Assembly (NCBI GenBank): GCA_947462105.1
Contig: CANHNJ010000016.1
Coordinates: 1 to 57,317, forward strand
Source of the DNA: Alphaproteobacteria bacterium
Lineage (GTDB): Bacteria > Pseudomonadota > Alphaproteobacteria > Micropepsales > Micropepsaceae
Reading direction: 5' to 3'
DNA: 57,317 bases
Under the pieces are notes generated by a model. That model saw nothing but the letters and a program-made list of their open reading frames with translations. It made no database searches and had not been told where the DNA came from. Within the stretch, counting starts at the first letter, position 1. Each line of letters starts with the position of its first letter. Below are positions 113 to 53,715 of the stretch, one piece after another. Position numbers and translations under genes: made by a program.

Positions 113-742
113 CTAGAAACCGAAGAGCCTGGCCGCGATACGCGGGATCAGCGCACCGAACTTCAGCGGCGCGGTGGTAACAGCCAGGTTGATGCAGGGC
201 TCACCCGGGTCCGCGATGGGATTGTGCACCACATCCGGCGTCGCCACCGCAAAGTCGCCGGGCCCGTAGGAGCCGGTCTCGTCGGTAAAGCCGCCCTGCA
301 GCACCAGCGTATATTCGCAGCCATGATGGCTGTGGCTGCCGGTATCGGCACCCGGCAGGCCCCTGAGCAACCGCACCCGGGTCTGGCCGCGCCGGAACAG
401 GTTGAAGAAGCCCAGCTTCGGGCCCATCGCCCGCCAGCGCACGCCGGACAGGTCGCCGCCCAGCAAGGAACGCAGCGGCGATGGCGTGCCATCGCGCGAC
501 GGCACGGATGCTGCCACCGGGGCCGCGTCATCAAGCCGGGCCAAGGCCAGCGCCAGCGCATCGCCGCGCATGGGCGCGGCAGCATCCAGCAACGCGCCGC
601 CCATCGCCTCGGCCATTATCACCGTCTGGTGGCAGGCCGGGCAGAAGCACAGATGCGTCGCAACGATCAGGGCGAGGCCCTCGTCCGCGGCGCCGCTGGC
701 ATAATCCAGCAGCAGTGCTTCCTCGGGATGGTGGCGGATCAT
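113..742 (-). CDS. chrR: ChrR-type zinc anti-sigma factor with C-terminal cupin
   Basis: The 209-aa product should bind and inhibit the ECF sigma factor encoded just upstream and release it on singlet oxygen or organic peroxide stress. Residues 1-60 form a zinc anti-sigma domain: an early HHPEE segment and THLCFCPACH near residue 30 give the His/Cys zinc ligands. Residues 95-200 are a cupin, with GSHSHHGCEY and the closing VVHNP as likely metal ligands. The ATG overlaps the sigma stop by 4 bases, so the pair is translationally coupled. Length and order match the Rhodobacter RpoE-ChrR pair (family knowledge). The signal itself is inferred, not visible. Confidence 0.88.
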   Translation of the reverse strand: MIRHHPEEALLLDYASGAADEGLALIVATHLCFCPACHQTVIMAEAMGGALLDAAAPMRGDALALALARLDDAAPVAASVPSRDGTPSPLRSLLGGDLSGVRWRAMGPKLGFFNLFRRGQTRVRLLRGLPGADTGSHSHHGCEYTLVLQGGFTDETGSYGPGDFAVATPDVVHNPIADPGEPCINLAVTTAPLKFGALIPRIAARLFGF

Positions 743-14608: not shown

Positions 14609-16183
14609 CTACTCCTTGACCGGCACCAGACGCACCACCATGCCGACATTGCCGTTGGTCATGCCACTGGCGGGTGTATTGCCGGTGGGATTCTGCAGCA
14701 GGATGTAAAGCAGCCCGTCTGGCCCCTGCTTGATGTCGCGCACGCGGCCGACACGGTCGAGCAGCAATTCGCGCGACAGGATCTGGTCGTTCTTCACCAC
14801 CATGCGGAACAGCTTCATGCCGGTCATGCCGGTGATGAAGAGGTTGTTCTTCCAGCCCTTGTAATGGTTGCTGGTCAGGAAGGTGATGCCGCCCGGGCCG
14901 ATGGCGGGATTGAAGAAGGTCTTGGGCTGTTCCATGCCCGCCATCTCAACCTCGCTGATGCCCGGTTCCAGGCCACGGCTGATCTTGCCCCAGCCATAAT
15001 TGGCGCCGCGCTTGATGACATTGACCTCGTCGCCACCGGTGGGGCCATGCTCGGTTTCCCACAGATGGCCATCAACCGGATTCCAGGCCAGGCCTTCGGG
15101 ATTGCGGTGGCCATAGCTCCACACCGATTTCATCGCATCCGGCGTGTTGAGGAACGGATTGCCCGGCGCGGGCTTGCCCTCATCGGTGACGCGATGGATC
15201 TTGCCGAAAGGCTTGGAGAGATCCTGGGCGTCATAGAAGTAGTGACGGTCGCCCAGCGTCCAGTACAGGCGCTTCTGCTTGTCCCAAAGGAAGCGGATGC
15301 CGTAGTGATCGTTGGGCTGGGTGTATTGCTCGTTGGGAGCGCGGTAGATCTCCTGATTGTCCACCCACTCGCCGTCCTTGACGCGGCCGCGCACGATCAC
15401 CGTCATGGTCGGCGGCGCCGGATTGGGCGCGATGTTGGAGTTCGGGGCCGGCGTCACGCCGGGCCGCACATCGACATAGCCGAGATAGATCCAGCCATTC
15501 TTCGCGTAATCTGGGTGCAGGATGATGTCGAGGTTGCCGGCATCCTGGCGGACAAAGACCTTGGGCGTGTTGCGGATCGGCTCGGACGCCGTGTTCTTGA
15601 CGATATCGATGAAGCGGATCTTGCCGCCGCGCTCCGGCACGATGGCGGTCTTGCGGTCCGGCAGGAAGGCGATGCCCCAGGGCACATCCAGCCCCGCCGC
15701 CACGACTTCCATCTTGAAGCTGCCATTCTGGTGTTTCACCACCAGCCCGTTGGGATCGGGCATGACGGGCGCGGTGTTGTTCAGGCGGCCGCCGGTGATG
15801 CGCATGTAATAGACCAGCTGGTGCGCCAGGGCGTCGTTGATGCGGCCCTTGAAGGCGGGCATGCGCCCGGCCGGGAAGCCGGTCATGATCGAATTGACGA
15901 TTTCGTTGTCGGTGCGGTTGGCCAGGAAGGTGGCATCAAACAGGCTGCGCGCCCGGGGGGTGCCGACCAGGTTGGTGCCGTGGCAACCGGCGCAGGTGCT
16001 GCCGAAAGTGGTCGCCGCCGTGGACGGCGCGAAGGGCGACAGGCGGATATCCGGGTTGGGCGTCACTGGGCCACGACCGGCCTGTGGGCCACGGCCCGCC
16101 TCCGGCGCGGCCTGCTGCGCCACAGCGGCACCCATGATGGAAACGCCAGCCAGAAAAGCGGCGGCAACCAGAACTTTGCGCAT
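14609..16183 (-). CDS. Cytochrome c - PQQ sugar dehydrogenase fusion
   Basis: A 524-aa exported protein. A signal peptide (residues 1-22) is followed by a Gly-Arg-rich tract. A class I cytochrome c domain has CAGCH at 64-68 and a likely Met ligand in PAGRMPAFKG. The C-terminal 350 residues form a PQQ-dependent aldose dehydrogenase propeller (GLDVPWGIAFLPD, GNLDIILHPDYAKNGWIYLGY, YGHRNPEGLAWNP, LWETEHGPTGGDEVNVI, GANYGWG, GPGGITFLTS). The fusion lets electrons pass from PQQ to heme in one polypeptide. The frame reaches 16324, but Met at 16183 begins the signal peptide. A gap of 49 bases separates it from the upstream end of the oxidoreductase gene. Confidence 0.87.
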   Translation of the reverse strand: MRKVLVAAAFLAGVSIMGAAVAQQAAPEAGRGPQAGRGPVTPNPDIRLSPFAPSTAATTFGSTCAGCHGTNLVGTPRARSLFDATFLANRTDNEIVNSIMTGFPAGRMPAFKGRINDALAHQLVYYMRITGGRLNNTAPVMPDPNGLVVKHQNGSFKMEVVAAGLDVPWGIAFLPDRKTAIVPERGGKIRFIDIVKNTASEPIRNTPKVFVRQDAGNLDIILHPDYAKNGWIYLGYVDVRPGVTPAPNSNIAPNPAPPTMTVIVRGRVKDGEWVDNQEIYRAPNEQYTQPNDHYGIRFLWDKQKRLYWTLGDRHYFYDAQDLSKPFGKIHRVTDEGKPAPGNPFLNTPDAMKSVWSYGHRNPEGLAWNPVDGHLWETEHGPTGGDEVNVIKRGANYGWGKISRGLEPGISEVEMAGMEQPKTFFNPAIGPGGITFLTSNHYKGWKNNLFITGMTGMKLFRMVVKNDQILSRELLLDRVGRVRDIKQGPDGLLYILLQNPTGNTPASGMTNGNVGMVVRLVPVKE

Positions 16184-16324
16184 GCGTGTCCCCCCAGGAC
16201 GGTTTTTGTTGGGCAAACCATAGACTTTCCGCCGGGGTAAAAAAGCCCCGGGCGCGGCCGGAAATCTAAAAAAACCGGACAGAATCCGCCAAGCCAGCTT
16301 GTAAACACTGGCCACAAAAAGCAA

Positions 16325-22940: not shown

Positions 22941-23008
22941 AAAAGCGCAGCGAGTCGCTGCCGATTTGGCAGGCGCAGGTTCCGCTTTTGCGCGCGGCGA
23001 AAGAAGCT

Positions 23009-26000
23009 TCACCGCCGCGCGGAATACCGGTTCGGGGCCCCCGGCGTCGGCAGATCGGTGGTGACCTGCGCCCCCGCCCCATGCGCCCTGGTCAGCGGCG
23101 CCTGCAACGTGATGCCGCTGCCAGCGATCGGCACACCGGCCGGATGGGCAAAGCGTGTCGGCGCCGCGATGGTGATGCGCGCGCCGCCACGCCCGCCCTG
23201 TGCCGCCAGCAGGTTCACCGTCTCGGCATTGGCACCACTGTCGATGATGATGGCCTGCCCAGCGGTGAAGCCGGCCGCCGGCGCGGCCAGCGGGATGACG
23301 GTTTCGCCGGCCGCAACGGCGGCGCCGCTGGTCGTGGCGCCCGGGGTGCCCACCGCCGCGATGGTGGCGATTTCCGCGTTGGCGCCCGCATTGATGGTCA
23401 CGCTCTGGCCGGCAGCGAAATCTGCCACGCTCGTCACTTTGATATTGCCGGCACCGGCCGCTGCCGCCACCGACAAGGTCGTTGCCGGCTGGGCCATGAA
23501 GTCGTTGCAGTTGCTGTCGCTGTCACGGCCATCCGGCAGGCGTCCGGCGCTGCTGTTGACGGTGATGACCGCGCCACGGCCACCACGGCCACCGGCCGCT
23601 GGGGCGCGGCAGCCCGCCTGCCCCGTGCCGGAAACGCCGTGATAGCCTTCTGCGGCCCAGGGATCGACGACCAGGCCGTAATTCAGACTGTCAACGACAC
23701 GGTTGCCGGCATCGCGCAGCACCATGCTGCCACCGGCGGCGGACAATGCCGGACCGCCGAACCATTGCTGCGGCGCCGGGCCCTGATAGCCCACCACCGT
23801 GATGCCATCGCGCCGCACCACCGCGTTGATGGCGTGGTTCTGCACCAGCGGACGGTCCAGCGTGATGCCGGTGCCGAGCGGCAGCACCGGCTCGTTGGTG
23901 GCACGGGCAAAGGCCGTGGCCGGCATGAAGCGGATGCCGGTGCCGCGATTGGAGAAGGGCAGGTTGCCTGCATGGGTGAATTTCAGCGGCGCAGCCAGCT
24001 CCAGGCCCGTACCCGGTCCGACCACCGCTTCGGCGGCCACATGCGCCCGGGTCAGCCCGGGCGTGACCGTCACGCTGGCGCCGTTAACGGCGGTGATGGT
24101 GACCGTCTGCGTCTTGCCGGGGTTGCCGACCACCAGCTTCTGCCCCACCGCCAGTGCGGCCAGGCCGGGACCGGCATTGACGGCAGCGTTGTTGAACACG
24201 CCGGTGCCGGGCCGCACCTGGATGCTCGTCGTGCCCGCAGCCGCGTCGGCCTGGAGCGCCAGCAGGATCGCTTGCGTGCCGACCGACTTGACCCTGACGG
24301 TCTCGATGCCGTGACCGACACTGTCGATATCAAGCCGGATCCTGTCGCCCACCGAGATGTCGATGACATTGGTCACCGAGATGTTGGTGGCGCCGGCGGC
24401 GGCATCCGTCGCCAGATAGGGATAGGCGCCGGGCTTGCCGACACTGGTGACGGTGGCGATCTCGAAGCGTTCGGTCTCGCGATAGGTGGCGGGATAGGTG
24501 GCGCCATGACCCAGCGCGATCTTGTCGCCCACGGCGAAACCGACGACGCTGGCGACCGGCACATTGGTCGCGCCTTTTTCAACGGTCAGCATCGAGCGCC
24601 CGCCTTCGGGCATGGGCTGCCAGACGGTGGTCTCCGGGCCTGCTGCGGTGCCAAGCCGTGTGATGCGGCGGCTTTCACCATCGACCAGGATGGTGTCGCC
24701 CAGCTTGAGGCCCTCGACGCTGCGGACATGGATGGTGCTGTCGCCCGCGCGCGCCGGAATCGCCAGGCCCGAATTGGCAAGCCCCAGCAGGTAGAAGCTG
24801 CGCGGCGCCAGCCTTGTGTTCGCCGGAATGCGGATGGCGGAGTTTACTGTCTGCCAGACCTGGTGCTGGGTCAGGCTCCAGTTGGAGACATCCACCGTGT
24901 TGGTGCCGGCATTGTAGAGTTCGATGAAGCTGTTGCTGGCATTGGTGGCGTCGGCAATGCGGAATTCGTTGAGCTTGACCGGCGCGGCGTTGCGCAGGCC
25001 CTGCACCGCCTTCCAGCTTCCGCCAGTCCAGTTGGCGGTAGCGACCATGTCGCCATTGAAGCCGCTGGCACCGGCGGTGACGCGGAAGGTGGCGTTGACG
25101 CTGGCGCCCGGCGCGACCGGGCCGGCAATCGTCACGGCGGTCTGCATGGTGCCGGGCACAAGCGCCGTCCATCCCGGCGGCAACGACAGGCTGAGCCGCA
25201 CGCCGCGCACGGGGGCGCCCGTGCTGTTGGTGAAGGCCACCATCGTGTCCTGCGACAGGCCCGGAACAAAGGTCTGCAGGCCCGTCGGCATGGCGATGGC
25301 CGCAGCCGGCGCCACTGTCAGCATCGGCACCGCATAGCGCGCGGCCACGACATTGGCCTGCACGCGCTGGTCGGCTTCGTGCGACGGATAGGTGTTGGCC
25401 GCCGTCATCGCGCCTTCATAGAAGGTGCCCTGGCTGGCGATGCTGTTGTCGCCGCCATTGCCCAGCAGGATGGCGCCCTGCTTGCGCATCGGGTCATAGG
25501 TGACATCGACGCGCGGACCATCGAACTGCAGATGCAATTGTCCGTTCTGGGCATCGCCGACCTGCGAAGCCCAGCTTCCCGGCTTGCCCTTGGCGATGGC
25601 GGTGACGAAACGGTAGCTGATGCTGGGCAGGTTGGAGCAGAACTTGGACTCGCTGCCGGGATTGACGCAGCCGACCAGGTTGTTTTCCTGGTCGGTCATC
25701 GCCCAGGGACCGGGCGGCTGGCCGTGATACCAGGCCGTGGCGTTGCCGAAATGGGTACTCTCCATTGTCCCGTTGCCGTCATCGCGGCTGGTGATCTCGG
25801 CATTGCCATAATTGAAGCAGCAGCCGGAATTAAAGTGCTGGCCGTTGAGCACCCAGTATTGGCCCTGCGCCTGATCATCGACGGCAGTGCCGCGCGGATC
25901 GTTCAGGCGCAGGCCCATGCCCGGCACGATATAGACGCCATAGACCTTGTGACCCATCAGCATCACCGGCGCGGCATCGGCCAGTGGCAGAGTGTTGTAG

Positions 26001-26428
26001 CCGCCCATGCCCTGCCCCAGGAACGCGCCGCGCGGCGCCTGGTAGAGGTGATTTCGCTTCGGCGACTGGTCGTAGATGATGCTGATCCAGCATGTGGTGC
26101 CGGCGCAGAAGACATCCTGCATGGCGGCATTGGCATAGCCGCCGGCGTCGCCCATCGCGGGACGTGCCACGCCGATGTTCAGCGTGCGCCCGTCGGACTT
26201 GCGCAACACCTGGTAGAGCGGGCCGCTGTAAGAGGCATAGAGCGCGCGCGTCGTGCTGTGCGCGGCGGCGCAAGGCGCCCCGGCTGCCGCGTAGATATCG
26301 CAGGGGCCTTCCGGCCGGGACGGCAGCCTGGCGTCCTGCGCCATCGCCAGGGGCAGCGTGAGCGCGCCGCCCGCCAGCGCCATGCCCAACATGAGAAACG
26401 CGAGCTTCAGCGCGATGGACTTCTGCAT
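23009..26428 (-). CDS. Multidomain GH54 alpha-L-arabinofuranosidase with lamin-tail-like domain and surface repeats
   Basis: A 1139-aa exported protein. After the signal peptide, residues about 42-360 match the GH54 arabinofuranosidase B catalytic domain (PCDIYAAAGAPCAAAHSTTR, TCWISIIYDQS, NSGCCFNYGNAE, GGDNSIASQGTFYEG). The Glu of GNAE (about 211) should be the nucleophile and the Asp of GGDNS is an acid/base candidate. Residues 385-470 resemble a NEW3 domain and about 484-590 a lamin-tail domain (VKLNEFRIADATNASNSFIE). The rest contains repeated units of the form VGDxIxLxxG...TVTSVG with Gly-Arg tracts. It lacks the fungal arabinose-binding CBM42. Probable role: releasing arabinose from plant polymers outside the cell. 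No cell-wall anchor was seen. Confidence 0.82.
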   Translation of the reverse strand: MQKSIALKLAFLMLGMALAGGALTLPLAMAQDARLPSRPEGPCDIYAAAGAPCAAAHSTTRALYASYSGPLYQVLRKSDGRTLNIGVARPAMGDAGGYANAAMQDVFCAGTTCWISIIYDQSPKRNHLYQAPRGAFLGQGMGGYNTLPLADAAPVMLMGHKVYGVYIVPGMGLRLNDPRGTAVDDQAQGQYWVLNGQHFNSGCCFNYGNAEITSRDDGNGTMESTHFGNATAWYHGQPPGPWAMTDQENNLVGCVNPGSESKFCSNLPSISYRFVTAIAKGKPGSWASQVGDAQNGQLHLQFDGPRVDVTYDPMRKQGAILLGNGGDNSIASQGTFYEGAMTAANTYPSHEADQRVQANVVAARYAVPMLTVAPAAAIAMPTGLQTFVPGLSQDTMVAFTNSTGAPVRGVRLSLSLPPGWTALVPGTMQTAVTIAGPVAPGASVNATFRVTAGASGFNGDMVATANWTGGSWKAVQGLRNAAPVKLNEFRIADATNASNSFIELYNAGTNTVDVSNWSLTQHQVWQTVNSAIRIPANTRLAPRSFYLLGLANSGLAIPARAGDSTIHVRSVEGLKLGDTILVDGESRRITRLGTAAGPETTVWQPMPEGGRSMLTVEKGATNVPVASVVGFAVGDKIALGHGATYPATYRETERFEIATVTSVGKPGAYPYLATDAAAGATNISVTNVIDISVGDRIRLDIDSVGHGIETVRVKSVGTQAILLALQADAAAGTTSIQVRPGTGVFNNAAVNAGPGLAALAVGQKLVVGNPGKTQTVTITAVNGASVTVTPGLTRAHVAAEAVVGPGTGLELAAPLKFTHAGNLPFSNRGTGIRFMPATAFARATNEPVLPLGTGITLDRPLVQNHAINAVVRRDGITVVGYQGPAPQQWFGGPALSAAGGSMVLRDAGNRVVDSLNYGLVVDPWAAEGYHGVSGTGQAGCRAPAAGGRGGRGAVITVNSSAGRLPDGRDSDSNCNDFMAQPATTLSVAAAAGAGNIKVTSVADFAAGQSVTINAGANAEIATIAAVGTPGATTSGAAVAAGETVIPLAAPAAGFTAGQAIIIDSGANAETVNLLAAQGGRGGARITIAAPTRFAHPAGVPIAGSGITLQAPLTRAHGAGAQVTTDLPTPGAPNRYSARR

Positions 26429-26526
26429 GACATCTCTCCCGGCGGGCGGGACCTGGCCCGCTTGTCTTTATTTGTCTGACAATTTAGCGGGGGCGGCGGG
26501 AGAGGCAAGCCCCGCCAGGCCTGTCC

Positions 26527-27672
26527 CTAATGCGGCGTTCGCCTGTAGCGCGCCACCTGGCCGAAAGGCGCCACCTGCGAGACGAAGATGTTGCCTTGCG
26601 CATCGGCCACCACGCCCTCGGGCCCGGTCGTGCCCTTCAGCGGAAACCAGGGCGTGGGATTGCCCAGCACATCGGGGATGAAGCCTGTGACTGCGCCGGT
26701 GCGGGCGCTGCCGATATGCACGCCGCGGATAAAGGCATTGCCTTCCTGCACGCTGGAAACGGAGTCACCCGCATAGAGAACATCATTCTTGTCTATGTAG
26801 AGGCCGCTGGGCTTGCCGAACTGCTTCCATTCGGCGAGGCGCTTGCCGTCCTGGTCGTAAACCAGGACCAGGCTGTTGCCGCGATCGGCGACGAAGATGC
26901 GGCCCCGGCTGTCCATCGCCAGGCTGTGGCTGCAATCGAAGGGAACAACGCTCTTGCTGCACAGGTCCCAAGCCTTGAGGAACTTGCCCGTCTTGTCGAA
27001 CTTCATGATGCGCGGCGGCAGGTTCGTCAGTTCATGGCCGTCAGCGACGAAGATGTCGCCATTGGGCGCCGTGATGACATCCGAAGGCTGGTTGAAGCGG
27101 CTGTCGTCGGCGCCGTACTGGCCGGTCGTGCCAAGCTGCAGCAGCAGCTTGCCTGCCGGGCTGAACTTCAGGACGCGGTTGCCCGCAGGCCTGGCGCCCG
27201 CCGCCGCCGGATTCGGCGTGCCGTCATTGCGCTGGATGTTGGACTGGGTATCGGCCACCCAGACATTGCCGTCGCGATCCACCCACATGCCATGCGGATA
27301 GACCAGCAGCCCCGCGCCGAAGGAGCGGACAAGCTTGCCGTTGGCGTCAAACTTCATGATCGGGTCGGTTTTCACGGCGGTGCAGCCACCCACGCCCGCG
27401 CAACGCTCCACCAGCCAGACCGACTTGCCGTCCCGGTCTATGTCCAGGGCACTGGTGGCACCGAGCACCCGCCCCTTGGGAAACTTCAGCCAGGTTTCGT
27501 CGCGTTCGAAATTGTTCGGCAGCGCCATGTCTTCGGCAGAGCGCAGCGTCTTGCCGTAATCGCCCGGCGGAACGCCGGTGGAATTGAACTCGTTGCGGCG
27601 CGGCTGGGCCAGCGCAGCGGTGGCAACCAGGCATGTGACAGCCAGCAACAATCCTGCGCGACGCGAAACCAT
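26527..27672 (-). CDS. Exported NHL-repeat/six-bladed beta-propeller protein
   Basis: A 381-aa protein: signal peptide ending ATAALAQ, then NHL-type repeats (YPHGMWVDRDGNVWVADTQ, FNQPSDVITAPNGDIFVADG, CSHSLAMDSRGRIFVADRGN, FGKPSGLYIDKNDVLYAGDS, GPEGVVADAQGNIFVSQV). The fold is that of peptidylglycine alpha-amidating lyase-like and SMP-30-like propellers. Four Cys (near 91, 97, 233 and 240) may form disulfides. No catalytic assignment is possible. It lies 98 bases downstream of the GH54 start on the same strand side and diverges from two related propellers at 27891 and 29250. Confidence 0.8.
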   Translation of the reverse strand: MVSRRAGLLLAVTCLVATAALAQPRRNEFNSTGVPPGDYGKTLRSAEDMALPNNFERDETWLKFPKGRVLGATSALDIDRDGKSVWLVERCAGVGGCTAVKTDPIMKFDANGKLVRSFGAGLLVYPHGMWVDRDGNVWVADTQSNIQRNDGTPNPAAAGARPAGNRVLKFSPAGKLLLQLGTTGQYGADDSRFNQPSDVITAPNGDIFVADGHELTNLPPRIMKFDKTGKFLKAWDLCSKSVVPFDCSHSLAMDSRGRIFVADRGNSLVLVYDQDGKRLAEWKQFGKPSGLYIDKNDVLYAGDSVSSVQEGNAFIRGVHIGSARTGAVTGFIPDVLGNPTPWFPLKGTTGPEGVVADAQGNIFVSQVAPFGQVARYRRTPH

Positions 27673-27890
27673 GACATGTCCCTCCCAGGGTGCGGCCGGA
27701 TCGTTGCGAAACCCGCCAGGGGTTCGACCGCAACTGCGAAGACGGCAGGCACATTCTTGTTGTTGCGGCGAGTAGAATAGGCCTGTCCGCGCGGGTCAAG
27801 ATCGGGCGCAGCAGGCAGGCTCGCCGCAGCTTGCCTTTGGCCCGCGCTGCCGCATACTTCGCAAAACAAAAACAGCATCCGGGGGATTTG

Positions 27891-29207
27891 ATGCGCGTCG
27901 CGCGCCTTGCCGTCATTGCTCTGGTCACGGCAACAGCCGCCACGGCGCAGCCCGCCAGCGGCCCCGCTGCGGATGGATCGCCCGCCTGGTTCGTCACGCA
28001 TGACGCCAACCTGCCGTCACGCAACTACGCCATGATGTGCAGGGAGGATATTCCGAAATTCTGCGGCGGGCAGAGCGGCCAGGCGCTGCGCATCTGTCTT
28101 TCAACGAACAAGTCGAAAGTCAACCAGGCCTGCCAGGACTCGCTCAACTCGCCCGGACAGACGGCGGGGACCGATACCTCCAATACGACCAATTGCGAAC
28201 GCTCGGTGATCTGCGCCACGGCCGCCAACAATGCGGGTGGCGTGCGCCAGACGGGCGGCGTGCCGCGCGTGCAGTGGCGGTCAGAGCCGCTCAACATGGG
28301 ATATAGGCCGGCTTATCCCTATGAGCTTCCGCCGGGCGGTGACGGCGCCACATCGGTGGGCATGGATTCGCGCGACAATCTCTGGGTGCTGCAGCGCGTG
28401 ATGCCGGGCATGCCGCAACTGTTCAAGTTCGGTCCCGACCGCAAGCTGATCCTGTCGCTGGGCGTAAAAGAACTGGGCCATCACCTCGACAAGCCGCACG
28501 GCCTTGCCGTCGATGCGGACAACAATGTCTGGATCTGCGACACATCGGGCGCCACGGTGCAGAAGATCAGCGCCGAGGGAAAGCTGCTCTTCACCCTGGG
28601 CCAGCATGGCCGTCCCGGCGACTGGGATGAAGCCAAGGGCCAGCGCCTGTTGTGGCAGCCCATCTCCATCGCATTCGCGAAGGACGGATCGGCCTATATC
28701 GCCGAGGGCCACGCCAATGAAAGCCCCAACGATACCGGCAGCAGCGATGCCGCCAACCGTTCCGGCGCGGCACGCATCATCCATGTCGCAAAGGACGGCA
28801 AGTTCATCGCCCAGTGGTATGGCAACACCTTCGGACCGGGAAAATTCTTCCAGGCCCATGACGTCGCCGTGGACCCGCGCAATGGCGATGTCTGGATCGG
28901 CGACCGCGAGGAATACCGCCTTGTCGTCTACACGGCGGATGGGCAGTTCATCAAAACCATCCAGACGCGCAACCTGACCTGCAACATCGCCTTCGACAAG
29001 GCCGGCGAGCTGTGGCTGGGCACGGGACAGGACGGCCAGATCGTGAAGATCGACCGCAGCGGCAAGGTGCTTGGCGCACTCGGCAACGGGCGCGGCGCGG
29101 GCATCGGCCAGGTCGGCGAGACCGGCTACATCACCTGGGACAGCAAGGGCAATATCTATACCGGCTCCACCGGCCAGGACCGCGTCACCATGTGGGTGAA
29201 GCCGTAA
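27891..29207 (+). CDS. NHL propeller with N-terminal GLG1-type cysteine-rich repeat
   Basis: A 438-aa exported protein. A signal peptide (MRVARLAVIALVTATAATA) is followed by PASGPAADGSPAWF and then CREDIPKFCGGQ to RICLSTNKSKVNQACQDSL (residues about 50-85), which has the spacing of the Cys-rich GLG1 repeat family. The remaining residues form NHL blades (LDKPHGLAVDADNNVWICD, WQPISIAFAKDGSAYIAEG, AHDVAVDPRNGDVWIGDREE). The start is ATG at 27891 behind GGGGG; the frame opens at 27690 without a signal peptide. It is a tandem paralogue of the next gene, 42 bases downstream. Confidence 0.8.
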   Translation: MRVARLAVIALVTATAATAQPASGPAADGSPAWFVTHDANLPSRNYAMMCREDIPKFCGGQSGQALRICLSTNKSKVNQACQDSLNSPGQTAGTDTSNTTNCERSVICATAANNAGGVRQTGGVPRVQWRSEPLNMGYRPAYPYELPPGGDGATSVGMDSRDNLWVLQRVMPGMPQLFKFGPDRKLILSLGVKELGHHLDKPHGLAVDADNNVWICDTSGATVQKISAEGKLLFTLGQHGRPGDWDEAKGQRLLWQPISIAFAKDGSAYIAEGHANESPNDTGSSDAANRSGAARIIHVAKDGKFIAQWYGNTFGPGKFFQAHDVAVDPRNGDVWIGDREEYRLVVYTADGQFIKTIQTRNLTCNIAFDKAGELWLGTGQDGQIVKIDRSGKVLGALGNGRGAGIGQVGETGYITWDSKGNIYTGSTGQDRVTMWVKP

Positions 29208-29249
29208 GAACGATCATCTGCAAAAACAGAAAACAATGGGGGAAATTTC

Positions 29250-30461
29250 ATGCGTGTTGCATCACTGACGGTTATGGCTCTTTTGGCGGCGTCTGCCGTC
29301 GCGGCGCAACCCACCAGCGGCCCCGCCGCCAACGGTTCGCCCGGCTGGTTCCTGCAGGTGCCGCCGCCGCCGCGCATCGCCAATCCGCTGGCCTACCGGA
29401 CGCAACCGGCGACCACGCCCAACAACAAGGCCAATGTGCCGCTATGCGTGAAAGCCACGGTCTGCGATTCGATTTTTGTCGGCCTGGCCAATCGCAACAT
29501 GGTGCCGCGCGTGCAGTGGCGCCAGACCCTGGGCTACACCTTCTCCTACCCCATCAAGCTTTCCATCACTGACGACAACGGCCCCTATCACAGCGGCGTG
29601 CCGGCCGTCGGCATCGACTCCAAGGGCAATCTCTGGGTCTTCCAGCGCCACCTGCCCGGCAGCGCCCAGCTCACCAAGTTCGACTCCAGCTACAAGCAAA
29701 TCCTGACCGTGGGTGACGATGTGATCGGCCACCAGGAAAAGCCACACGGCCTGGCCGTGGATGGCGAAGACAATGTCTGGATCGTCGATGCCGATGCCGC
29801 CACCGTCATGAAGCTGTCGCCGGACGGCAAGCTACTGAAGACCTTCGGCAGCAAGCTGAAGCGCGGCGACTGGAACGAAGCCAAGGGCCAGCGCCTGCTG
29901 TGGCAGCCCATGGATATCGCCTTCGCGCCCAATGGCGATTTCTACATCGGCGAAGGCCATGCCAATGAAAGCCCCAACGATGTGGAGTCTGGCGATCCCG
30001 CCAATATGGTGGGCGCAGCCCGCGTGCTGCATTTCAACAGGAATGGCGATTTCATCAACCAGTGGCACGGAAACAGCGTCGGCCAGGGCAAGTTCAGCAT
30101 GGCGCATGGCGTGGCGGTGGACCCGCGCAATGGCGATGTCTGGATCGGTGACCGCGAGCAGTATCGCATCGTGGTCTATACCAAGGACGGCCACTTCGTG
30201 AAGACGCTGCAGATGCGCAACCTGATCTGCGCCATCGACTTTGACGCCGCCGGAAACCCCTGGATCGCCAGTGGCCAGGACGGACAGATCCTGCGCATTG
30301 ACCGCAACGGCAAGGTGCTGGGCGCGATGGGCAACGGTTATGGCCGCGAGCCCGGCCAGGCGATCGAGACCACCTACATGGCCTTCGACAAGCAGGGCAA
30401 CATCTTCACCGGCGACACCAGCGTCGGGCGCGTCACCAAATGGACCAAGCCCAAGCCGTAA
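29250..30461 (+). CDS. NHL propeller protein, tandem paralogue
   Basis: A 403-aa exported protein with the same leader style (MRVASLTVMALLAASAVAA) and the same PTSGPAANGSPGWF motif as the upstream gene. The blades are nearly superimposable (EKPHGLAVDGEDNVWIVDAD, WQPMDIAFAPNGDFYIGEG, AHGVAVDPRNGDVWIGDREQ). It lacks the Cys-rich repeat; only two Cys (CVKATVCD) remain there. The pair therefore arose by tandem duplication, followed by loss or gain of the Cys-rich module. Function unknown; a lyase or lactonase-type propeller is possible. Confidence 0.8.
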   Translation: MRVASLTVMALLAASAVAAQPTSGPAANGSPGWFLQVPPPPRIANPLAYRTQPATTPNNKANVPLCVKATVCDSIFVGLANRNMVPRVQWRQTLGYTFSYPIKLSITDDNGPYHSGVPAVGIDSKGNLWVFQRHLPGSAQLTKFDSSYKQILTVGDDVIGHQEKPHGLAVDGEDNVWIVDADAATVMKLSPDGKLLKTFGSKLKRGDWNEAKGQRLLWQPMDIAFAPNGDFYIGEGHANESPNDVESGDPANMVGAARVLHFNRNGDFINQWHGNSVGQGKFSMAHGVAVDPRNGDVWIGDREQYRIVVYTKDGHFVKTLQMRNLICAIDFDAAGNPWIASGQDGQILRIDRNGKVLGAMGNGYGREPGQAIETTYMAFDKQGNIFTGDTSVGRVTKWTKPKP

Positions 30462-47555: not shown

Positions 47556-47954
47556 ATGAGACCAAAACACTTAATCGCGAAGAAGCCTGCGGAGCAGGTT
47601 GTGAAGGATATCCGCCGGGCGATCCGGCGGCACTTCTCAGCGGAAGACAAGATCCGGATTGTGCTGGATGGCCTTCGTGGAGAAGACAGCATAGCGGAGC
47701 TGTGCCGCAAAGAAGGCATAGCCCAGAGCCTTTATTACACGTGGTCGAAGGAGTTCATGGAGGCTGGCAAGCGCCGGCTGGCTGGCGACACGGCCCGTGC
47801 CGCCACTACAGGCGATGTGCAGGATCTGCGCCGCGAGACCTGTGCCCTGAAGGAGTGTGTGGCGGACCTGACCCTGGAAAACCGCCTGCTTAAAAAAGCA
47901 TGCTGGCGGATGGGGGCGACGAGGCATGAGGTATCCCCCTTCTCAAAAGCTTGA
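47556..47954 (+). CDS. IS3-family transposase OrfA (probably frameshifted near its end)
   Basis: A 132-aa protein with a helix-turn-helix (FSAEDKIRIVLDGLRGEDSI, ELCRKEGIAQSLYYTWSKEF) and a coiled-coil/leucine zipper tail (TLENRLLKK). After the A6 run at 47892-47897 the frame continues into 28 odd residues. In the -1 frame it would instead read SMLADGGDEA and stop within the orfB start ATG, which looks like the normal OrfA end. So a base has probably been lost in the A-run of this copy, or the A-run is a slippage site. Confidence 0.82.
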   Translation: MRPKHLIAKKPAEQVVKDIRRAIRRHFSAEDKIRIVLDGLRGEDSIAELCRKEGIAQSLYYTWSKEFMEAGKRRLAGDTARAATTGDVQDLRRETCALKECVADLTLENRLLKKACWRMGATRHEVSPFSKA

Positions 47955-48906
47955 GATCATCAGGCTCGTGGAGCAGTCGCACCTGCCTGCCGGGCGCACG
48001 CTGGAACATCTGGGCATCCCGCGGCGAACCTTCTGCCGCTGGTATGACCGTTATTGCAAAGGAGGTCCCGAGGCTCTGGAGGACCGGCCTTCGGTTCCGG
48101 GCCGGGTTTGGAATCGTATCCTGGCGGCTATCCATGACCAGATCATCGAGCTGGCTCTGGATCAGTGCGAACTGTCACCCCGGGAACTGGCTGTGCGCTT
48201 CACCGATGAGAAGCCCTATTTTGTGTCTGAAGCCACGGTTTACCGGCTGTTAAAGGCCCACGACCTGATCACCACCCCTGCCTTCATCGTGATGAAGGCA
48301 GCCAACGAGTTCCATACCAAGACGGCGCGGCCGAACGAGATGTGGCAGACCGACTTCACCTACTTCAAGATCATCGGCTGGGGCTGGATGTACCTGTCGA
48401 CCGTCCTTGATGACTTCTCGCGCTACATCATCGCCTGGAAGCTTTGCACGACCATGCGAGCCGGGGACGTCACCGACACGCTGGGCATGGCGCTCACGGC
48501 GTCGGGCTGCGATCAGGCCACTGTGCTGCATAAACCAAGGCTGCTCAGTGACAATGGCCCCAGCTACATCGCTGGTGAACTGGCCGAGTGGATCGAGGCG
48601 CATGGCATGAGCCATGTACGCGGCGCACCACTCCATCCCCAGACACAAGGCAAGATTGAGCGCTGGCACCAGACCCTGAAGAACCGCGTCCTCCTGGAGA
48701 ATTACTTCCTGCCCGGTGACCTGGAGCAGCAGATCGAGGCGTTCATCGAGTACTATAACCACCGGCGCTATCACGAGAGCCTGGAAAATGTAACGCCCGC
48801 CGATGCTTACTTCGGCAGAGCCACAGCCATCATCCAACGACGAGAAAGGATCAAGCGACAGACCATCGAACATCGACGCTTGCAACACCGCAAGCGCGCC
48901 GCTTAA
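47926..48906 (+). CDS. IS3-family transposase OrfB (integrase core)
   Basis: A 326-aa DDE recombinase. An N-terminal helix-turn-helix (RTLEHLGIPRRTFCRWYDRY) is followed by the rve core with all three acidic residues visible: WQTDFTYF, LLSDNGPSY and QGKIERWHQTLKNR, and the closing FIEYYNHRRYHESL. No damage is seen, so transposition competence depends on OrfA. It has its own ATG at 47926. Confidence 0.92.
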   Translation: MRYPPSQKLEIIRLVEQSHLPAGRTLEHLGIPRRTFCRWYDRYCKGGPEALEDRPSVPGRVWNRILAAIHDQIIELALDQCELSPRELAVRFTDEKPYFVSEATVYRLLKAHDLITTPAFIVMKAANEFHTKTARPNEMWQTDFTYFKIIGWGWMYLSTVLDDFSRYIIAWKLCTTMRAGDVTDTLGMALTASGCDQATVLHKPRLLSDNGPSYIAGELAEWIEAHGMSHVRGAPLHPQTQGKIERWHQTLKNRVLLENYFLPGDLEQQIEAFIEYYNHRRYHESLENVTPADAYFGRATAIIQRRERIKRQTIEHRRLQHRKRAA

Positions 48907-49050: not shown

Positions 49051-50331
49051 TCATTCATCACCCAGCGACCAGATGCGGTGTGCATCGATCATCAGCTGCA
49101 GCACGGCGCTATGGGCCGAAGCCCGCGCGCGCAGCTCGGTGCGCCGCACCTCGAAATCCTGCCGCTGCGCCAGCAGCAGTTCGGTCAGACCAATTTCGCC
49201 CAACTCCACCGCACGCTGCATCCGCATCAGCATCTGCCGGCTGCTTTCGGCCGCCAGACGGCTTTGCTGCCAGCCTACCAGCCCCTGCTGTGCCGCGATT
49301 ACGTCACGGTCGGCGGCGATCTCGACATCCCGCAGCGCCTTGCGCGCGGCAATACCGGCGGCAGAGGCCTCCGCTACCGCCTGGTCGGCCGCAGCGCTGC
49401 GCAAGGCGCCTCCAAGGGGCATCGAGAAGCCGATACCAAATCCTGTCTCATGGCCGGAGCGTTCCTGAAAGGTGCGCATTTCTAACGTGGGATCGGCAAA
49501 ACGGTCCATGGCGGCACGCTTAGCCAGCCAGTCGCGTCGTTCGGCCTCGCTCTGCGCCATCTTGATCTCGTGATTATCGTCCAGCACAGCGGCGCGCCAC
49601 TCCTCCCACGCGCCCGGGGGTGCCTGCGGATCGGGCATGGGCTGAAACCTCAACGGCAGCACAAGACTGGGAAAAGTCCGCTGCAACGACACTTTGCTGC
49701 TTTGCTGCACCTGGCGCGCCTGGGCGGCCAGCGCGCGGGCCTGCGCCAGCGCGGCCTGCACCTGCTCGACCTGCAGGATGGCAGCCTGGCCCAGTTCGCG
49801 GCTGCGCGTGGTGGCGGCCAGCTGGCGTTCATAGCCTGCGACTTCTTCGGTGGCGAAAGTCGCCTCGGCCTCCGCCACCACCCATTCGATATAAAACGTC
49901 TTCAGAAGGGTCGCCGTCTCGTGTCGGGCGTCGCCGAAGCCATTCTCGGCCACCGCAACACCTGATGCCCCGATACGTTCATCAGCATTGGCCTTGCCCG
50001 GCAGGCGGAAACCGCGCGCTACGCCGATGCTCCATTCGTTCAGGCGACCCTCAATGTTGGTGGCGCGGCTGACATACTCGCCGCGCAAGGTGAACTCATG
50101 CGGTCCCGCCGCGCGCGCACGCGCCTCCGCCTCGGCGGCCTGCACCCGGGCGCGGGCCTGCAGCACGTCCGGGTCTTCCGCCATGATGCGGTCCACCATG
50201 TCGTGCGGCGGCATGAAATCCAGGCTTGGGGAATGCACATCGGTGTGCGCGACGGGTACGGCCGTCTGCGCCAACGCCATGGAGGAAAACGCTAGTAAGC
50301 TGGCCGCGATTAGCGGAGGCTTGATCTTCAT
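49051..50331 (-). CDS. czcC: CzcC-like outer-membrane efflux protein (TolC family)
   Basis: A 426-aa exported protein. A signal peptide (ending SSMALAQ) is followed by two OEP-type repeats of long helices: VLQARARVQAAEAEARARAA, LNEWSIGVARGFRLPGKANA, then LRDVEIAADRDVIAAQQG and RMQRAVELGEIGLTELLLAQ. It forms the trimeric exit duct of a heavy-metal RND pump. It is the last gene of the operon; its start overlaps the DUF3240 stop by 4 bases. CzcC at the 3' end is unusual: in most operons it precedes czcB. Confidence 0.86.
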   Translation of the reverse strand: MKIKPPLIAASLLAFSSMALAQTAVPVAHTDVHSPSLDFMPPHDMVDRIMAEDPDVLQARARVQAAEAEARARAAGPHEFTLRGEYVSRATNIEGRLNEWSIGVARGFRLPGKANADERIGASGVAVAENGFGDARHETATLLKTFYIEWVVAEAEATFATEEVAGYERQLAATTRSRELGQAAILQVEQVQAALAQARALAAQARQVQQSSKVSLQRTFPSLVLPLRFQPMPDPQAPPGAWEEWRAAVLDDNHEIKMAQSEAERRDWLAKRAAMDRFADPTLEMRTFQERSGHETGFGIGFSMPLGGALRSAAADQAVAEASAAGIAARKALRDVEIAADRDVIAAQQGLVGWQQSRLAAESSRQMLMRMQRAVELGEIGLTELLLAQRQDFEVRRTELRARASAHSAVLQLMIDAHRIWSLGDE

Positions 50332-50633
50332 GCGAAATCTCCGGCGTCATGGACCGGTTCGGTCCAGTAATGCATCTGTGGCGTGCGAAAGCGCTTCCGC
50401 AGTTCCGCCAGCAGCGGCGCTACATGCGCCGCCGGCAGGATCAGCATCATCAGCACGGTATCGACGCTGCCGCGCACTTTCTCCCGCAAGGTTGCGTTGA
50501 TGAAATCCGCCCCGTGTCCGGCGGCCTGAACCGTGGTAAAGCCGTGCGCGTCCCATTCGCTTTCCAGCAGGAACTCCACCACCGTGTCGGCCATGGCGCC
50601 GGGACAGGACAGGACAAGCTTGGTCAAGATCAT
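50328..50633 (-). CDS. DUF3240 family protein of a metal efflux operon
   Basis: A 101-aa cytoplasmic protein with a ferredoxin-like, P-II-style layout: KLVLSCPGAMADTVVEFLL at the start, HGADFINATLREKVRGSVDT in the middle, VLMMLILPAAHVAPLLAELR and MHYWTEPV at the end. DUF3240 genes are typically inserted in czc/cus operons and are thought to modulate the RND pump. Overlaps of 4 bases with both neighbours couple it to czcA and czcC. Confidence 0.82.
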   Translation of the reverse strand: MILTKLVLSCPGAMADTVVEFLLESEWDAHGFTTVQAAGHGADFINATLREKVRGSVDTVLMMLILPAAHVAPLLAELRKRFRTPQMHYWTEPVHDAGDFA

Positions 50634-53600
50634 ACCATATCCTCCTTCACGCGGGCCACGCCAAAGCGCTGGAACAGAATCGGCAGGAGGAAAAGCGTCA
50701 GCACAGTGGAAGTGATTAGCCCGCCGATCACGACGATGGCCAGCGGCTTCTGGATCTCCGATCCGGGACCGGTCGCGAATAGCAGCGGCACCAGGCCCAA
50801 TGCCGCGATCGCGGCCGTCATCACCACGGGGCGCAGGCGCCGCCGCGCGCCGTCATAGACCACCTCGCGCATGGGCAACCCCTGCGCCAGCAACTGGTTG
50901 AAATAGACGATCAGCACCAGGCCGTTCAGGACCGCGATCCCCAGCAGCGCGATGAAACCTACCGAGGCCGGCACAGACAGGTATTCGCCTGACAGCCACA
51001 GCAGCAGGATGCCACCAATCAGCGCCAGCGGAATGTTGGCCAGGATCAGCAGCGACTGGCGCACCGAGCCCAACGTGGCGAAAAGAACCAGGAAAATAAG
51101 CCCCAGCGCCAATGGCACCACGATCATCAGACGCTGCGCCGCGCGTCGCTGGTTCTCGAACTGGCCGCCCCATTCCAGCCGGTACCCAGAGGGCAGCTTG
51201 ACATCCTGGGTTACCACTGCCTGCGCGGCTTCCACGAAGCTGACAAGATCGCGGCCCGACACGTTGGCCTGAACGGTGGCGAAACGCGAGGCGTTCTCGC
51301 GGTTGATCCGCACCGGGCCTTCGGGCTGTGTGATCTTTGCCACGTCAGCGACATGCACTACCCTACCCTCATCGCCTACCATGGCAACATTGCCCAGCAG
51401 TTCGGGACGGCTGCGCAGGTCCGCGGCGCCCTTGATGACGATGGGCACGCGGCGCCCCTGCTGGATGACGACGCCGGCATCCAGCCCTTCCAGCCGGGCA
51501 CGCATTTCTTCCTGAAGAACCTCGGCGGAAACTCCGGCATCGCCGGCCGCCATGCGATCGATGTCGGTCTGCAGATAACGCACGGAATCGCCGGCCATGG
51601 TGAAAACCTCCGATGCGCCCTGAACCTTGGCCACCGCCGCGCGAATTTCTTCCGAAAGGCGGCCCAACGCCTGCAAGTCCGGTCCGAAGACCTTTATAGC
51701 AAGGTCGCCACGACTGCCGGTAAGCATTTCAGAGGTGCGCATCTCGATCGGCTGGGTGAAGACGTAGTCCACGCCTGGGAATTCCTGCATGACTACGCGT
51801 AGGGCTTCGACGATGTCCTCCTTGCTACCTGTTCGCCACTCCGAACGGGGTTTGAGCGTTAGGAAGAGGTCCGTTTCGTTAAGGCCCATCGGATCAAGGC
51901 CAATCTCATCGCTGCCCACCCGCGCCACGGCGCCACTGATTTCGGGAACCTGGGCCAGCACGGCCTGCTGCACTGCACGATCCACGGCAACAGACCGCTC
52001 CAGCGTGATCGAGGGCAGCTTCGCCAGCTGGATAATGATGGAGCCTTCATCCATGGTCGGCATGAAAGTCTTGCCGACCGAGATATAGGCCAACGCTGCT
52101 ACGGCGAATGCCAAGCCAACGCCGATATAGAGCCGTATAGGCTTTCGCAGGGCAGCCGCCAACGCCCCGGAGTAGAGCGGCATCAGCTTGCGCATCAGCC
52201 ATGGTTCGCCATGGACGCCCGGCTTCAGCACCAGCGAGGCGATAACGGGAATGAGCGTAAGCGACAGCAGCAGCGACCCCGACAAGGCAAAGATGATGGT
52301 CAACGCCACCGGCGCGAACAGCTTGCCTTCCAGCCCCTGCAGCGACAGCAGCGGCAGAAAGACCAGGCAGATAATGACGATGCCCGACGCCACGGGCACG
52401 GCCACTTCCGACGCGGCGCGGTAGATAACATGAAGATAGGGCACCTTGCCGTCCTGGCGATGATGGCCCAGCCGCTCCACCGTGTTCTCGACCACCACCA
52501 CGGCGGCATCCACCAGCATCCCGACGGCGATGGCCAGGCCGCCCAGACTCATCAGGTTGGCAGTCAGGCCGAACAGCATCATCATCAGGAAAGTAATCAG
52601 CGCGGCAAAGGGCAGCGTCAGCGCCACCACGATGGCGGCACGCAGGTTGCCCAGGAACAGCAGCAGCAGCACGACGATCAGCACGGTTGCTTCCAGCAGG
52701 GCATGCTCCACGGTGCTGACCGCACGGCTGATGAGATCGGCGCGATCATAGAAAACGTTGATGTGAACGCCCTCGGGCAGGTTTGCTTCCAGTTCCTGCA
52801 GGCGGGCGCGTACCCCAGCCACCACCGCGCCGGTATCAGCGCCGCGCAGGCCCAGCACCAGGCCCTGCACCGCCTCGCCCACGCCATCGCGGGTCACCGC
52901 GCCATAGCGGGTCAGAGTGCCAGTGCGTATCTGCGCCACGTCACCCAGCCGTACGCTGCCGCCACCGCGCGTTGGCACGATGACCTGCCGCAAATCTTCC
53001 AGCGTCTGGATTGCGCCCACGGCACGCACGATCAGGGCCTCTTCGCCTTCATTGACGCGGCCTGCGCCGTCATTGCGATTGGCAGCGGCGATGGCGTCGC
53101 GGATATCGGAGACGCGCAAGCCCGCCGAGATCAGCGCCGCATCATCGGGCACCACCTCGAAGCTGCTGACAAAACCACCCAGTGCGTTCACATCGGCGAC
53201 ACCGGCAATGGTGCGCAAGGCGGGACGGATGGTCCAGTCCAGCAGGGTGCGCCGCTCTGCCAGACTCAGCGTGCCACCCTCGATGGTGAACATGAAGATT
53301 TCCGACAAGGGCGTGGCAATGGGGGCAAGCCCGCCACTCACCGTATCTGGCAGACTGTCCATGGCCTGCGACAGCCGTTCGCCCACCTGCTGGCGCGCCC
53401 AATAGACATCTGTGCTGTCGGTGAAATCTATGGTGATGTCGGCGATGGCATATTTCGCCATGGACCGTAGGATCACCTGATCGGGGATACCCAGCAGCTC
53501 CAATTCGAGGGGCGCGATCACGCGCTGCTCGACCTCCTCCGGCGTCATCCCCGGAGCCTTCAGGATGATCTTCACCTGGGTGGTGGAAATGTCGGGATAT

Positions 53601-53713
53601 GCGTCGATCGGCAGGCGCGAGAAGGCATAGCCGCCCGCCGCCAGCAGCAAACCCGCAAGCACCAGCATCAGCATCCGCTGGCTCAGGGAAAGTTCGATGA
53701 TTCGGCGCAGCAT
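50630..53713 (-). CDS. czcA: Heavy-metal efflux RND pump (CzcA/CusA family)
   Basis: A 1027-aa inner-membrane proton-driven pump. It starts MLRRIIELSLSQRMLMLVLA, with GGYAFSRLPIDAYPDIS and an even pattern of about twelve transmembrane segments. The TM4 signature is GMLVDAAVVVVENTVERLG (about residues 397-415), keeping the proton-relay Asp and Glu. Its DAA spacing resembles HME4-type (copper/silver) more than the classic DG motif of CzcA, so metal choice is open; the czc name is by family only. Near the C-terminus, GIAVLNGLVLIVYFNQLL replaces the second repeat signature. It overlaps DUF3240 by 4 bases and follows czcB by 2. Confidence 0.92.
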   Translation of the reverse strand: MLRRIIELSLSQRMLMLVLAGLLLAAGGYAFSRLPIDAYPDISTTQVKIILKAPGMTPEEVEQRVIAPLELELLGIPDQVILRSMAKYAIADITIDFTDSTDVYWARQQVGERLSQAMDSLPDTVSGGLAPIATPLSEIFMFTIEGGTLSLAERRTLLDWTIRPALRTIAGVADVNALGGFVSSFEVVPDDAALISAGLRVSDIRDAIAAANRNDGAGRVNEGEEALIVRAVGAIQTLEDLRQVIVPTRGGGSVRLGDVAQIRTGTLTRYGAVTRDGVGEAVQGLVLGLRGADTGAVVAGVRARLQELEANLPEGVHINVFYDRADLISRAVSTVEHALLEATVLIVVLLLLFLGNLRAAIVVALTLPFAALITFLMMMLFGLTANLMSLGGLAIAVGMLVDAAVVVVENTVERLGHHRQDGKVPYLHVIYRAASEVAVPVASGIVIICLVFLPLLSLQGLEGKLFAPVALTIIFALSGSLLLSLTLIPVIASLVLKPGVHGEPWLMRKLMPLYSGALAAALRKPIRLYIGVGLAFAVAALAYISVGKTFMPTMDEGSIIIQLAKLPSITLERSVAVDRAVQQAVLAQVPEISGAVARVGSDEIGLDPMGLNETDLFLTLKPRSEWRTGSKEDIVEALRVVMQEFPGVDYVFTQPIEMRTSEMLTGSRGDLAIKVFGPDLQALGRLSEEIRAAVAKVQGASEVFTMAGDSVRYLQTDIDRMAAGDAGVSAEVLQEEMRARLEGLDAGVVIQQGRRVPIVIKGAADLRSRPELLGNVAMVGDEGRVVHVADVAKITQPEGPVRINRENASRFATVQANVSGRDLVSFVEAAQAVVTQDVKLPSGYRLEWGGQFENQRRAAQRLMIVVPLALGLIFLVLFATLGSVRQSLLILANIPLALIGGILLLWLSGEYLSVPASVGFIALLGIAVLNGLVLIVYFNQLLAQGLPMREVVYDGARRRLRPVVMTAAIAALGLVPLLFATGPGSEIQKPLAIVVIGGLITSTVLTLFLLPILFQRFGVARVKEDMV

Positions 53714-53715
53714 GG

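Follow-up and report, generated by a model that had tools for sequence, protein, structure and literature searches.

The organization of the repeat-rich tail of a bacterial GH54 protein is the question raised by one gene in a 57,317-nucleotide stretch of DNA from a member of the alphaproteobacterial family Micropepsaceae (assembly GCA_947462105.1, contig CANHNJ010000016.1; the whole stretch is called the window here). The gene encodes P0001, a protein of 1139 residues with a GH54 catalytic domain, a NEW3 domain, a lamin-tail domain (LTD), and repeats. Our analysis makes it quite probable that P0001 is an exported GH54 enzyme with NEW3 and an LTD whose loops carry two recursively nested stalks of barrels. 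Each unit would be a two-part, six-stranded small beta-barrel made of an N-half and a C-hairpin. The first stalk would be four barrels deep, R1{R2{R3{R4}}}, and the second two deep, R5{R6}; in each, the chain would go outward through all of the N-halves and come back through their C-hairpins. Several lines of evidence appear to support this unusual nested topology of the tail, but none proves it. Barrels threaded inside one another appear to be a rare mode of protein growth.

Motif order and the interrupted lamin-tail domain

The tail of P0001 contains six N-half and six C-hairpin motifs, which read NNNN-CCCC along the first insert and NN-CC along the second. Five motifs of each kind from P0001 seeded the profiles, which were iterated three times on 18 sequences. 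Eleven of the 12 motifs score 22-51 bits, and the C-hairpin of R4 (C4) scores 9.5 bits. At the same threshold no motif was found in residues 1-470 of P0001, and 500 shuffled tails together yielded 70 matches to the N profile and 37 to the C profile, the best at 9.5 and 7.3 bits. The pattern NNNNCCCC or NNNCCC, with equal N and C counts, is found in 16 of the 17 whole first inserts (that of L058 is partial). The counts are 4/4 in ten of them, 3/3 in six, and 4/3 in one. Second inserts read NNCC (2/2) in 14 sequences, and the contig of L056 ends before its second insert is complete. In none of the 18 sequences does an N-half follow a C-hairpin within one insert; the scored rows are related, and no probability is attached to this order.

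Excision of the two inserts indicates that the repeats lie within the LTD. In P0001 Pfam reports PF00932 at residues 482-552 (E 1.7e-8, 35.2 bits, cut-off 34.3) as a partial match covering profile positions 6-71 of 109. Both inserts were cut out, the halves were joined, and the product was rescanned (three of the nine joins made were scanned). The P0001 match rose to 40.5 bits over positions 5-108. In the paralogue L015 it went from 48.8 bits (4-76) to 57.8 (4-108), and in L020 from 43.8 (6-101) to 49.7 (6-108), the uncut protein having already reached position 101. Segment 1 of the P0001 LTD alone gives 35.3 bits (5-68), and a control join of segment 1 to repeat sequence gives 34.5 bits (5-94). 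On this sequence evidence the repeats are placed inside the LTD at two sites and not as tandem units after it. The LTD fold is immunoglobulin-like, and its proposed end carries a TPGAPN motif, which we take to be typical of bacterial LTDs. NEW3 (NPCBM_assoc, PF10633) matches at E 4.5e-8 with 33.6 bits against a cut-off of 24.4. The NEW3 and lamin-tail calls of the original prediction are thus both above the Pfam cut-offs. Its fusion of a lamin-tail domain with repeats holds in that both are present, but the repeats lie within the LTD and appear to be nested in one another.

The original prediction pictured a complete LTD followed by an ordinary tandem array of beta-domains. Similar N motifs readily look like tandem repeats, and Pfam gives the LTD as one stretch preceding them, but the C-hairpins never alternate with the N-halves and come after all of them in every scored sequence. 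In addition, the LTD profile becomes complete in P0001 and L015 only once the inserts are removed. A tandem array after the LTD is therefore quite unlikely, and a simple tandem tail was rejected because every C-hairpin comes after all of the N-halves of its insert.

Other features of the tail are variable or score low. The repeats had been described as carrying Gly-Arg tracts, and while the repeats are borne out, the tracts vary among nine rows: a GGRGG-like tract is present in two of nine at the first site and GGRGGA in four of nine at the second. The tracts were therefore rejected as conserved functional elements. FliMN_C in the repeats is under the cut-off in the whole protein and narrowly exceeds it, at 24.0 versus 23.8 bits, when the tail is scanned alone. 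K1-lyase_Rider (PF24149) is below its cut-off of 27, with 10.5 bits in the whole protein and 15.5 in the tail alone.

Barrel folds and the proposed nesting and growth of the stalks

Models show R4 and R6 as contiguous small beta-barrels like those carried as insertions by phage tail proteins. Stalk 2 (residues 979-1130) was modeled from an alignment of nine rows, some of them further repeats from the same proteins, with a predicted local distance difference test score (pLDDT) of 85.6 and a predicted template modeling score (pTM) of 0.60. In VIA-align, R6 (model residues 49-129) matches 8vjh_B with Z 11.0 and a root mean square deviation of 2.2 over 76 residues, LKA1 gp49 with Z 10.8, and K1 lyase with Z 10.6. 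Among the entries listed for stalk 2, 12 have Z from 8.0 to 11.0; two of these are GH110 entries, and the other ten belong to phages or a gene transfer agent. EF-Tu and ATPase rows are near 7. R4 matches 9in6_M (Z 9.1, 73 aligned, 2.3 A). A Foldseek search of the PDB with the stalk 2 model gave no match at E<=0.001; a Klebsiella phage depolymerase (4.8e-3) came closest, along with a JBD30 baseplate protein and K1 lyase. A viral structure library gave nine matches at E<=0.001, of which six are named as phage proteins, one is from Klosneuvirus, and two are nameless. Structure prediction of residues 600-1139, proposed in the original prediction, thus bears fruit for the R4 and R6 barrels and for stalk 2, but the 470-1139 model is poor overall. 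Its better parts include model residues 250-336 (residues 719-805, R4) and 559-636 (R6), both of which match small barrels, while the LTD region is mostly below pLDDT 50.

The stalk 2 matches also bear on whether N-halves and C-hairpins pair. Four of the 50 rows span the model from residue 1-2 to residue 149-152 with just 67-75 residues aligned. They appear to pass over the inner barrel, which is what an R5 divided by an inserted R6 would give; the best of them is 8rk3_D, whose chain 249..325 aligns over 72 residues at 1.6 A. Alternatively, the N-halves could form one array and the C-hairpins another that does not pair with it, such as a short solenoid. The low confidence of the model for the outer levels R1-R3 speaks for such arrays, but N and C counts shift jointly between 4/4 and 3/3, the innermost N and C pairs model as complete barrels, and the NN-CC stalk has both its high pLDDT and its end-to-end matches. 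Separate arrays are accordingly improbable, if slightly less so than a tandem tail. Under the nested topology the outer halves of stalk 1 would pair as listed in Table 1.

The tail-bearing GH54 genes form a group of their own. In the source genus GH54 is found in eight of 69 genomes, and the tail is present in all eight (the gene of G840 is split over two frames); the source genome has two copies. In the class, three of 386 genomes (completeness at least 80) have GH54, one of them marginal (27.4 bits across 69 positions). It is present in 13 of 396 genomes of the phylum to which the Acidobacteria metagenome-assembled genome with L003 belongs, 12 of them above the cut-off; here tailed GH54 is found in four genomes (six genes), untailed GH54 in six (by motif profiles), and fragments only in three, and G664 has a tail piece at a contig edge. 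The catalytic-domain tree has 23 rows, a midpoint root, and no fungal rows; it left out pieces below 250 bits (L057, L060, and those in L059) as well as the marginal hits of G164 and G624. A 100/99 split separates 17 tail-bearing genes, from Alphaproteobacteria and the L003 phylum, from six others. The domain order of P0001 is repeated in 16 more tree genes (one split between frames, one cut by a contig end) and in one fragment at a contig edge. Clade A has 12 rows including P0001 (100/100), and clade B has five including the paralogue (96/96). Each clade mixes members of the genus and of the L003 phylum, a pattern that points to an ancient duplication and to transfer across phyla. Locus L049 (4998-11660, forward strand) has two tandem tail-bearing GH54 genes, one per subclade, with a GH95 gene nearby; in both genes the frame stops early within the second insert.

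The distribution of the fourth barrel suggests how stalk 1 grew. The 3/3 first inserts are those of all five clade B genes and of L049_4998. The R4 block, in which N4 and C4 are contiguous, is absent from these genes, so that the simplest history would be that a fourth barrel entered the third during the diversification of clade A. The step from three to four barrels would consist of the insertion of a whole barrel into a loop of the innermost one. It is likely that the barrel module acts as insert and as its own host, and that a double-threaded stalk extends from the LTD as each new barrel enters the innermost loop. On the same reading of homotypic recursion, there is a good chance that the three-to-four step is visible among living relatives and that a second stalk arose in the same LTD.

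The barrel module and the tail are also found outside GH54. A stalk 2 profile matched two of 289 class genomes, with all seven matches within GH54 genes, and six of 297 genomes of the L003 phylum, namely three GH54 genomes, the G664 fragment, and two prepilin-like proteins. These counts are lower bounds, as at most 14 candidates were scored per genome. The two proteins, prepilin-like by eye, have single modules with weak C parts: L076 (1261-2223, forward strand) has N at 35.3 and C at 7.6 bits with 11 residues between, and L077 (1-3174, reverse strand) has N at 16.8 and C at 3.0 bits. A plasmid of Novosphingobium sp. P6W (L091, 8022-9923, forward strand; WP_052505932.1) encodes most of the LTD and both stalks without GH54 or NEW3, downstream of an ISKra4 transposase. 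Its motifs read NNNNCCC and NNC, and all N precede C. A search of viral contigs for the tail gave 116 pattern-matching stretches, none of which was confirmed; PHROGs gave 0 families, and a search of tail proteins in phage records gave no match. A PDB profile search listed eight sequences, four of them GH54 and the other four at E 0.06-0.5.

The stalks most likely lengthen the enzyme and help to hold it on a polysaccharide or partner surface. They may instead be carbohydrate-binding modules rather than spacers, which is plausible, although we lean somewhat against it. In the available passages on these phage proteins, the K1 lyase "rider" plays a part in carbohydrate sites and in stability, and the substrate groove of LKA1 gp49 is made deeper by its insertion barrel. 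However, the same fold is said to play structural roles, as in the I-domain of the P22 coat protein.

Several observations weigh against the nested topology. The 18 sequences scored with the motif profiles, including P0001, had also served to train them. Counts are unequal in the first insert of L055 (4/3), where a hairpin is visible by eye at the missing place, in the second insert of L050 (2/1), and in the Novosphingobium copy (4/3 and 2/1, one C-hairpin short per insert). Both L049 genes have NN without C in the second insert, where their frames end, and the second of these N-halves is weak, at about 3 bits. C4 scores are low: 9.5 bits in P0001, just above the C range of shuffled tails, 2.0 in L018, and 0.8 in L057 (same contig as L004). 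The last two are within the chance range, which makes the innermost C-hairpin the least secure motif. The gain on excision in P0001 is modest (5.3 bits), and a Pfam scan of just LTD segment 2 joined to the last 17 residues finds nothing. The three-sequence model of residues 470-1139 has pLDDT 49.2 and pTM 0.25, which leaves the LTD fold and the pairing in R1-R3 putative, and the end-to-end rows are known by their alignment ends and not by contacts. Finally, the branch that places L049_4998 first in clade A is weakly supported (81/51).

Catalytic domain, gene, and surroundings

P0001 has an ordinary GH54 catalytic domain. PF09206 matches at E 9.5e-118 (393.3 bits, cut-off 25) over profile positions 1-315 of 315, and the AkAbfB structures match in the PDB at E 3.3e-101, in agreement with the original GH54 assignment. 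By homology P0001 would be an exo-alpha-L-arabinofuranosidase with a retaining mechanism, Glu248 as nucleophile, and Asp327 as acid/base. Glu248 aligns with a position occupied by Glu in 1wd3 and 6sxt and by Gln in 6sxr, which we take to be that of the AkAbfB nucleophile Glu221. Asp327 is the presumed counterpart of Asp297, which we take to be the AkAbfB acid/base. Glu248, Asp246, Cys203, and Cys204 are identical in all eight covering rows (P0001 and seven relatives, since L004 lacks that part), and Asp327 is identical in all nine. Glu211, which had been proposed as the intact catalytic residue, is Ser in three of the eight rows and was rejected as nucleophile, a place taken by Glu248. P0001 shares with AkAbfB (1wd3, 6sxr, 6sxt) the catalytic domain, the Glu248 and Asp327 positions, the vicinal cysteines, and the GGDNS motif; unlike AkAbfB, it has NEW3 and an interrupted LTD, and no CBM42 (AbfB) is listed for it in the Pfam scan at E<=1. 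The enzyme is expected to clip arabinose from plant polysaccharides, its presumed substrates. The Novosphingobium tail, without GH54 or NEW3 and downstream of an insertion sequence element, would fit a decayed or inactive GH54 retained for its tail. With its presumed catalytic residues and vicinal cysteines intact and its frame open, P0001 is very improbable as such a relic.

The gene itself is genuine, and its open reading frame lies where the original prediction placed it. A ribosome-binding-like GGGAGAG stretch lies directly 5' of the ATG, and the guanine-plus-cytosine (GC) fractions at the three codon positions (0.65, 0.55, and 0.84) have the pattern of a coding frame. Antisense to the entire gene is an open frame of 1163 amino acids (window 22988-26479, forward strand) with codon-position GC of 0.84, 0.55, and 0.65. 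These values mirror those of P0001, and this frame is most likely a high-GC shadow of the GH54 gene. P0001 is presumably exported, having a signal-peptide-like N-terminus; no anchor motif was seen when the sequence was read by eye.

Table 1. Features of the GH54 gene and its nearest neighbors (window coordinates; P0001 residues in parentheses)
Feature	Coordinates	Strand	Basis
Whole GH54 gene, protein P0001, 1139 aa	23009..26428	-	open reading frame list and translation
Signal-peptide-like N-terminus, no lipobox cysteine (1-30)	26339..26428	-	judged by eye
GH54 catalytic domain, PF09206 (42-366)	25331..26305	-	Pfam, profile 1-315/315
Glu248, aligned with AkAbfB residue that is Gln in 6sxr	25685..25687	-	alignment; presumed nucleophile
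Asp327, presumed acid/base	25448..25450	-	aligned through GGDNS motif; presumed role
NEW3 / NPCBM_assoc, PF10633 (389-465)	25034..25264	-	Pfam
LTD segment 1 (477-557)	24758..25000	-	Pfam and excision test
N-half of barrel R1 (559-594)	24647..24754	-	motif profile
N-half of barrel R2 (617-664)	24437..24580	-	motif profile
N-half of barrel R3 (676-718)	24275..24403	-	motif profile
N-half of innermost barrel R4 (729-781)	24086..24244	-	motif profile; solved-barrel matches span 719-805
C-hairpin of R4 (786-798), weak, 9.5 bits	24035..24073	-	motif profile
C-hairpin assigned to R3 (806-825)	23954..24013	-	motif profile; putative pairing
C-hairpin assigned to R2 (829-848)	23885..23944	-	motif profile; putative pairing
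C-hairpin assigned to R1 (852-871)	23816..23875	-	motif profile; putative pairing
LTD segment 2 (873-984)	23477..23812	-	excision test (construct used 868-985)
N-half of barrel R5 (989-1028)	23345..23464	-	motif profile and model
N-half of innermost barrel R6 (1039-1071)	23216..23314	-	motif profile and model; solved-barrel matches span 1027-1107
C-hairpin of R6 (1082-1101)	23126..23185	-	motif profile
C-hairpin of R5 (1103-1122)	23063..23122	-	motif profile and fold matches
Proposed LTD end with TPGAPN motif (1123-1139)	23012..23062	-	sequence; beyond Pfam profile
Three NHL-repeat genes	26527-30461	one as GH54, two divergent	Pfam

The surroundings of the gene fit the use of plant polysaccharides. 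The nearest NHL-repeat gene lies 98 bp upstream of the GH54 gene on the same strand, and the two further NHL genes are divergent from it. A stretch at the start of the L056 contig is 54-55% identical to the second and third NHL genes. The downstream side has a TonB receptor, a glucose/sorbosone dehydrogenase-cytochrome fusion, and a pyrroloquinoline quinone quinoprotein. In the fusion (14609-16324, reverse strand), which adjoins the TonB receptor, the dehydrogenase lies behind a fused cbb3-type cytochrome c domain. When 15 window neighbors were compared with 17 related loci, no fixed operon was found around tail-bearing GH54; the only matches were NHL ones in L056 and a weak GGDEF one in L017. 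The neighbors of the relatives are mixed, with hexuronate catabolism at L019, GH95 at L049, and TonB receptors at L015 and L020. A neighbor at L003 reads as GH31-like by eye. Elsewhere in the window an integrase-core transposase-like gene (47926-48906, forward strand) lies beside a three-gene resistance-nodulation-division efflux set (49051-54759, reverse strand). Scans of the window for tRNA genes and Rfam families gave 0 each.

Precedent and significance

The set of domains in P0001 has already been noted. A 2021 study (PMC8155123) describes a bacterial GH54 group, "Bacterium I", from Acidobacteria, Verrucomicrobia, Proteobacteria, and Actinobacteria, with the combination ArabFuran-catal, RICIN, LTD, NPCBM_assoc, and internal repeats (RPT1). 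Compared by domain content, the group resembles P0001 in all of these except RICIN, and the passages of the paper that describe it are silent on repeats inside the LTD or nesting. The claim that no such architecture is known was therefore rejected at the Pfam level, while the search for domain architecture did confirm GH54, NEW3, and LTD. The passages of PMC6083626 on the LTD merely name it as a cellulosome module. Among the titles listed by searches of the open literature on nested insertion and on GH54, none describes nested stalks in GH54.

Insertion of domains into one another has precedents in other proteins. The K1 lyase "rider", the LKA1 gp49 barrel, and the P22 coat I-domain are, as in P0001, small beta-barrels inserted in another domain, and in the first two the insertion is described, in the passages available, as stabilizing the enzyme or deepening the groove. 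In those passages each of them is one insertion, whereas the barrels of P0001 appear to host each other. SI3 of cyanobacterial RNA polymerase has a six-level recursive insertion, and the passages on it in PMC13114784 state that single hybrid motifs take part in 33 of the 59 insertions; phage tail sheath proteins are described in parts of PMC6088184 and PMC3004832 as having "Russian doll" nested domains. Both share with the proposed P0001 stalks a recursive A1-B1-C-B2-A2 insertion topology, and SI3 is built largely from related hybrid motifs, but they differ from it in folds, hosts, and functions, and neither is carbohydrate-active. If homotypic recursion holds, the P0001 tail would probably be the counterpart of the SI3 insertion in a carbohydrate-active enzyme.

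The relatives of P0001 outline a bacterial GH54 subfamily without CBM42. They are also a warning that the topology of insertions can be missed when repeats are annotated with Pfam or visually. If the nesting is real, the family catches recursive domain insertion in progress, with homologues of three and four levels, two-level stalks next to these within one protein, and single free modules in other proteins. The growth and folding of nested domains would then become testable in small proteins.

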